DNA of 33,519 bases from Microcaldota archaeon (GTDB lineage: Archaea; Micrarchaeota; Micrarchaeia; Micrarchaeales; CABMGC01), in contig JAJZKU010000010.1 of NCBI GenBank assembly GCA_021850705.1, positions 1-33,519 on the forward strand, read 5' to 3'. The notes below the pieces were generated by a model. That model saw nothing but the letters and a program-made list of their open reading frames with translations, was not told where the DNA came from and searched no databases. Positions 862-33,519 of the stretch are shown piece by piece. Each line of letters opens with the position of its first letter. Within the stretch, counting starts at the first letter, position 1. Both the position numbers and the translations under genes were made by a program.

Positions 862-1521
862 CTACTTGCCGCCTGCTTTCTTCCCAGCCTTTGGCTGATT
901 CTGTGAAGGCTGCTGTCCTCCCTGCTGAGACTGTGCAGCAGGCTGCTGCGGAGCCTGTGAATTGAGGTCGCTGAAGTCTACCTTGACTACAGCCTTTTCC
1001 TCATCAGGTGCCTGGAAGAAGTCAGCCTTCTTGAAGTTAAACGTAGACGCAATCCATACGTTAGGCACGGTCTGCGTTGCATTGTTGTAATCAAGAACAT
1101 AATCGTTATAAGAGGTCCTTACAAAGGCTATCCTGTCCTCTGTAGCTGCGAGCTCCTGCTGCAGCTGCTGGAAGTTCTGCGATGCCTTAAGGTCCGGATA
1201 GTTCTCAGCCACTGCGAATATCGACTTCAGGGCCTGGCTTAGCTGGTTGTTTGCAGCAGCTTTGTCCTGGACCGAACCGGTAACAAGAGATGCCCTTATC
1301 TTTGTAACGTCTGTAAGTACTCCGCGCTCATACTTGGCATAGCCCTTTACGGAATCTATCAGATTAGGTATCAGGTCATACCTTCTCTTAAGCTGCACAT
1401 CTATCTGCGCCCACGCATCCTGTACCCTGTTCCTCTTCACTACAAGGCCGTTGTACATCGCCCCTATGGCTATAAGGACCAAAAGAACAACTATGCCTCC
1501 TATTATTTCAAGCAATACCAT
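862..1521 (-). CDS. lemA: LemA family protein
   Basis: N-terminal TM then NGLVVKRNRVQDAWAQIDVQLKRRYDLIPNLIDSVKGYAKYE, typical of LemA; directly upstream of htpX as in many LemA-HtpX operons. Confidence 0.92.
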   Translation of the reverse strand: MVLLEIIGGIVVLLVLIAIGAMYNGLVVKRNRVQDAWAQIDVQLKRRYDLIPNLIDSVKGYAKYERGVLTDVTKIRASLVTGSVQDKAAANNQLSQALKSIFAVAENYPDLKASQNFQQLQQELAATEDRIAFVRTSYNDYVLDYNNATQTVPNVWIASTFNFKKADFFQAPDEEKAVVKVDFSDLNSQAPQQPAAQSQQGGQQPSQNQPKAGKKAGGK

Positions 1522-23377: not shown

Positions 23378-23505
23378 GAAAGAACCTGCAGTGATTAACA
23401 GACAGTATATAATATTTCCCTACATTTAAATACTGTCCTGTGAAGACAAGAGTAACTGCTGAAATATGATGAAGTCCATATCGGCTGAGGACAAATGGTG
23501 CTTAG

Positions 23506-33074: not shown

Positions 33075-33267
33075 AATACCTTATAAAATATCAATAATTA
33101 TAATAACTGGCATTAAAAAGTCTGCTTTCAGTTACGTTTAAAAATCTGGACGCGTGGCTTACGCTATTCTAATCATCAAAACGAAGAAAAAGAAATGTGA
33201 AATGTAGCTTGAGCATGTTGAAGAATCGCGAACAGCTGTTTTACGCACACGAATATGGTATATATAT

Positions 33268-33519
33268 TGAGGTGATCTATCCGCAGGTTCCCCTACGGAT
33301 ACCTTGTTATGCCTTAGCCCCCCTCACAGAACCTTAATTCGAAAGCATCTAAAGATGCTGCCTCACTAAGGCCCTACTTGGATGACTTGGCAGGCGGTGT
33401 GTGCAAGGAGCGGGGACAAATTCACCGCTCGTTGGTGACAAGCGATTACTAGGGATTCCAACTTCATGAGGGCGAGTTTCAGCCCTCAATCCGGACCGGG
33501 ACTGGTTTTAGGGATTGGC
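33268..33519 (-). rRNA. 16S rRNA, 3' end (5' part outside window)
   Basis: Reverse strand: AGTAATCGCTTGTCACCAACGAGCGGTGAA, CACACACCGCC, TAACAAGGTATCCGTAGGGGAACCTGCGGATAGATCACCTCA. Confidence 0.96.

Follow-up and report, generated by a model that had tools for sequence, protein, structure and literature searches.

The window (the whole 33,519-nucleotide stretch analysed here) carries at one end the 3′ 253 nucleotides of a 16S rRNA gene on the minus strand (33267–33519), which span the h41–h45 region and the 3′ end; the gene is incomplete, its 5′ part having been lost at the contig edge. The fragment matched the Rfam model RF01959 over model positions 1223–1478 (minus strand, 33519–33267) with a score of 221 bits and E = 1e-61, against a gathering cut-off of 50, and thus belongs to the archaeal small subunit rRNA. 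The source MAG comprises 647 kb in 24 contigs and is 78.7% complete; full-length 16S genes are present in the congeners G002, G004, and G005. Helix 44 (h44), including both strands of the decoding site, lies at 33309–33397 (minus strand) and is predicted to fold as a hairpin of −37.2 kcal/mol. The alignment to the Rfam consensus has no gaps across either decoding-site strand; therefore, the minus-strand assignment and E. coli numbering given in an earlier, sequence-only reading of this DNA are secure on both sides of the site. Elsewhere in the window, positions 23436–23490 match the C/D box small RNA sR14 with a borderline score (38.3 bits versus a cut-off of 38).

Direct reading of the minus strand gave U1404 (33392), G1405 (33391), C1406 (33390), C1407 (33389), A1408 (33388), and A1409 (33387) on the 5′ side of the decoding site, and U1491 (33316), A1492 (33315), A1493 (33314), G1494 (33313), G1495 (33312), C1496 (33311), and A1497 (33310) on the 3′ side, with the pairs U1404–A1497, G1405–C1496, C1406–G1495, C1407–G1494, and A1409–U1491. 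The Rfam alignment agreed with the direct reading on A1409, U1491, and the unaltered decoding adenines A1408, A1492, and A1493. The window and the standard archaeal h44 (RF01959 consensus) are alike in these 3 adenines, in C1407–G1494, and in the overall h44 fold. Three pairs differ: (i) the universal U1406·U1495 mismatch is replaced by a Watson–Crick C1406–G1495 pair, that is to say, the pair of the kinetoplastid mitochondrial type; (ii) the usual C1404–G1497 is replaced by U1404–A1497; and (iii) the archaeal consensus C1409–G1491 is replaced by A1409–U1491. In strand letters, the window has TGCC/GGCA as opposed to the standard CCCGTC/GTCGTAAC. The sequence-only reading had listed replacements (i) and (ii), which were borne out by direct reading; it had overlooked replacement (iii).

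Comparison with other genomes indicates that C1406–G1495 in the window is real biology, neither a sequencing error nor a pseudogene. The window copy is a contig-end fragment within an incomplete MAG, which could point to an error of sequencing or assembly, or to decay of the rRNA copy. We consider such an artefact extremely improbable, since the same states occur in more than 100 assembled stretches and in 2 complete genomes, A_DKE (C–G) and ARM-1 (G–C), with one pattern match each, every change is paired, and the remainder of the helix folds normally. Among 253 loci, in which some genomes are present more than once through different collections and 113 entries were chosen for S/S, so that the figures are counts and not frequencies, the 1406–1495 pair was U·U, C–G, or G–C in every case, with no half-changed C·U or U–G intermediate, and A1408 was kept in all 253. 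The earlier argument that covariation speaks against error is thus upheld by the same pair in dozens of independent assemblies. A normal 16S copy elsewhere in the genome, which the same reading had named as the case against it, was looked for in the 24 contigs of the 78.7% complete MAG; the sole match was the window fragment itself. As to the congeners, G003 has U1404 and C1406 on its 5′ strand, and G002, G004, and G005 carry C1404–G1497 (loci L013, L015, and L017) together with C1406–G1495.

When 85,462 species genomes were scanned for a strong (S/S) pair at 1406/1495, 113 Watson–Crick stretches were returned (112 C–G and 1 G–C); this is a lower bound on the carriers because the scan pattern needs intact flanking motifs. 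Nearly all matches were Candidatus Micrarchaeota, and several titled Marsarchaeota or "bacterium" had an h44 of the same type. The others were 12 gut genomes of the Clostridia/Christensenellaceae type and single matches to a bacterium L049 (termed CPR-like from a small genome and a short h44 of bacterial type, and not from tree placement), the Dojkabacterium L086, the Diapherotrites L129, and the divergent Guaymas Micrarchaeota L124. One of the 12 gut records, contig L125, is titled Prevotella and has a Clostridia-type 16S with C1406–G1495; it is probably mislabelled or mis-binned.

In the order of Ca. Micrarchaeum, to which the window belongs, the pair was read in 66 genomes, 50 of which are C–G, 15 U·U, and 1 (ARM-1) G–C. 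Where both strands were read, the window's own family (f1) comprises 12 C–G and 15 U·U genomes, the family of A_DKE (f2) comprises 38 C–G genomes and 1 G–C genome, and the other families of the class are U·U in 53 of 53 genomes, all of which have A1409–U1491. These sequences indicate that the Watson–Crick pair is the rule across the order, with separate origins elsewhere, and not the peculiarity of a single genome, as it had at first been framed.

The origins outside the order serve as independent replicates. The C–G Clostridia form one clade (SH-aLRT 98), and C1406–G1495 and A1409–U1491 were gained on one stem; the other members of the clostridial order that were read have U·U in 30 of 30 cases, 26 of them with C1404–G1497 and C1409–G1491. 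The haplotype of L049 is the same as that of the window at these pairs. The one further member of its family examined has U1404–A1497 and A1409–U1491 but still U·U, a state that matches the order of changes in the archaea. The Dojkabacterium and a few members of the order depart from this pattern in combining C1406–G1495 with a strong 1409–1491 pair.

A 16S tree of 139 sequences was built from an nhmmer-based alignment with the decoding columns left out and the introns removed. On this tree, the 1406–1495 pair needs 6 changes: U·U to C–G 3 times in the order, in clades that contain 5, 31, and 49 rows, U·U to C–G once for the Guaymas/Diapherotrites pair, C–G to G–C once, and one apparent reversal. 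The Watson–Crick pair was thus probably gained at least 3 times within the order; given that some inner branches are weakly supported, the history may instead have involved one early gain, or fewer origins with more reversals. The tree puts U1404–A1497 at the stem of the order, where 1406–1495 is still U·U, and the 1404–1497 state changes about 14 times independently on the tree; the window's U–A pair is therefore best taken as old background. The sequence-only reading had regarded this pair as compensatory, which does not hold: U–A came before C–G, it flips about 14 times, and it offsets only about 0.8 of about 6 kcal/mol. The change that depends on the new 1406–1495 pair is, as judged from its distribution on the tree, A1405–U1496 (from G1405–C1496). 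It was gained 6 times, each time on a C–G branch; Watson–Crick branches make up 48% of the tree length, and the chance that all 6 gains would fall there is about 0.012. The haplotype of A_DKE is U1404–A1497/A1405–U1496/C1406–G1495, and ARM-1 has G1406–C1495.

Nearest-neighbour energies, which leave out the ribosome, were calculated relative to the standard stem. U–A at 1404 costs +0.8 kcal/mol, and C–G at 1406 together with C–G at 1404 gives −6.1 kcal/mol; the window stands at −5.3 kcal/mol and A_DKE at −3.3 kcal/mol. A1405–U1496 with U·U would cost +1.7 and +3.0 kcal/mol, and this combination was never observed. The gain of about 6 kcal/mol from C–G exceeds the 1–3 kcal/mol that the other changes give back, so the overall stability of the stem is not conserved.

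We think it fairly probable that the window encodes part of a functional 16S rRNA whose decoding helix was rebuilt along one archaeal lineage by coupled double substitutions, with stepwise compensation; drift plus compensation inside h44 is the likeliest cause. The succession that we infer from the tree would be as follows. Pairs around the internal loop of A1408, A1492, and A1493 would have weakened, A1409–U1491 being class-wide, and U1404–A1497 would then have arisen on the stem of the order. Conversion of the soft U1406·U1495 mismatch into a Watson–Crick pair, probably at least 3 times in the order, would thereby have become tolerable or favoured, and the new pair would in turn have permitted G1405–C1496 to change into A1405–U1496, 6 times and only on that pair. 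A rigid 1406–1495 pair may brace the A-site loop on its upper side, such that A1492 and A1493 still flip out while their neighbours drift. Several observations stand against compensation. Every class outgroup read has U·U alongside A1409–U1491, so a weak lower pair is not enough to force the change; the Dojkabacterium and a few members of the order have C–G at 1406–1495 next to a strong 1409–1491 pair; and the stem does not keep its overall stability. The dynamics of A1492 and A1493 in the loop may be affected as well. In a known excited state of the decoding site, G1494 pairs with U1406 (PMC12314911), and C1406–G1495 is therefore predicted to alter that exchange.

Two ribosomal partners of the decoding site were compared. 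The sequence-only reading had suggested looking for covarying changes in protein uS12. The uS12 decoding loop reads KQPHSGLIK in most Micrarchaeota compared, including G000 (C6:69625–69954), with the variants PNSG in ARM-1 and PSSG in G040 and G317; in solved ribosomes, the top archaeal uS12 chains read PNSA or PNSG, and the clostridial and Dojkabacterial C–G carriers retain PNSA. PHSG or a close variant is present in U·U, C–G, and G–C archaeal genomes alike, none of the loop states follows 1406–1495, and a uS12 change was therefore rejected as an explanation. Likewise, the loop of 23S helix 69 (H69) is GUAACUCUGAC (A1916C) in U·U and C–G genomes alike wherever it could be read and does not track the 1406–1495 state. 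This loop replaces the usual GUAACUAUGAC in those Micrarchaeota, and in the Diapherotrites genome, in which it was readable (L284–L285, L289–L291, L293–L294, and L296–L298). A second, standard-type H69 in a congener MAG (G004:C13:415–439) is probably contamination from another archaeon.

The 1406–1495 U·U pair was described in 2011 as conserved in the three domains and in organelles, except for the mitochondria of kinetoplastids (Leishmania and Trypanosoma), which have 1406C–1495G (PMC3101183). These mitochondria share C1406–G1495 with the window, and that of Trypanosoma also has A1409–U1491 (PMC3101183). By contrast, the kinetoplastid case concerns organelle ribosomes and the Micrarchaeota case cellular archaea, order-wide, with the further variants G–C, A1405–U1496, and U1404–A1497. 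Since the class outgroups are U·U, convergence is the natural reading of the resemblance between the two sets of sequences. The second counterpart is an engineered one: recombinant bacteria with 1406C–1495G, the pair of the window, are viable, and drug tests showed them to be susceptible to neomycin and paromomycin, with high-level resistance to gentamicin and tobramycin (PMC3101183). They are laboratory constructs without the natural neighbouring changes seen in Micrarchaeota. In a paromomycin study that cites Hobbie et al. (PMC3140962), U1406C/U1495G is reported to have had hardly any effect on the MIC. The altered drug response put forward in the sequence-only reading thus holds for the isolated pair in engineered bacteria (PMC3101183); in Micrarchaeota, by analogy, insensitivity to gentamicin and tobramycin, not to neomycin and paromomycin, is expected as a by-product.

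Other causes can be weighed against drift plus compensation. Neutral drift alone would mean that slightly harmful h44 changes become fixed in small host-dependent populations and that C1406–G1495 is tolerated without compensating for anything. In its favour, the assemblies of the prokaryotic carriers are all small (about 0.4–1.3 Mb). The separate switching between states, including G–C in ARM-1, also fits drift, as does the viability of the engineered C–G bacteria (PMC3101183). We nevertheless find drift alone unlikely, because the change is always coupled and double with no intermediate among the 253 loci, A1405–U1496 is confined to the C–G background, and the change is rare in the scan of 85,462 genomes, although many of these are small. 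Stiffening of h44 by the Watson–Crick pair for hot acid habitats would fit a gain of about 6 kcal/mol by nearest-neighbour rules. The same lineages, however, weaken 1404–1497 and 1405–1496, the carriers include Clostridia from rumen and rectum (according to record titles), and U·U relatives occur within the same family, which together make thermal or acid adaptation quite improbable.

Just as little probability attaches to selection of C1406–G1495 as resistance to an inhibitor in the habitat that resembles 4,6-linked aminoglycosides. G1405, at which methylation confers classical resistance, is mostly kept, the G–C pair of ARM-1 is left unexplained, and there is no known ecological reason for long exposure across such different habitats. 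The high gentamicin and tobramycin resistance of the recombinants would favour such selection, and their susceptibility to neomycin and paromomycin (PMC3101183) speaks against it, as does the near absence of an MIC effect in PMC3140962. By analogy with the recombinants, resistance probably came along as a by-product, and it explains the change poorly as a cause.

On drift plus compensation, a broader proposal can be made, which we hold tentatively and with somewhat less than even confidence: the Watson–Crick 1406–1495 pair would re-balance a weakened A-site loop, a path that archaea, Clostridia, a CPR-like bacterium, and kinetoplastid mitochondria would each have taken on their own, and U1406·U1495 would be no universal cellular requirement. 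If this is true, these ribosomes would have measurably different A1492/A1493 dynamics and fidelity and a natural insensitivity to 4,6-linked aminoglycosides. A whole archaeal order and several bacteria break the U·U rule stated in PMC3101183, probably more than once, and with natural replicates that have before-and-after relatives, what keeps the U·U mismatch in place can now be tested directly. In the literature searched, from which subscription journals were largely absent, so that priority is not proven, natural C1406–G1495 was found only in PMC3101183, and nothing archaeal or on DPANN was found on this site. What is new, as far as the sequences go, is that a pair known from an organelle is now order-wide and recurrent in cellular ribosomes, with dependent neighbouring changes.

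Many Micrarchaeota 16S genes contain insertions of about 500, 700, or 840 bases, presumably rRNA introns (L022, L024–L031, L075, L084, L104, L114, L146, and others), whose sites recur at model positions of about 1045–1052, 866, and 1322 in the nhmmer-based alignment; one 841-base insertion sits directly before h44. Compared with window positions 33309–33400, the universal primer 1492R has 2 mismatches in its last six 3′ bases, and the universal primer 1406F has a mismatch at its last base; PCR surveys may therefore under-count these lineages.
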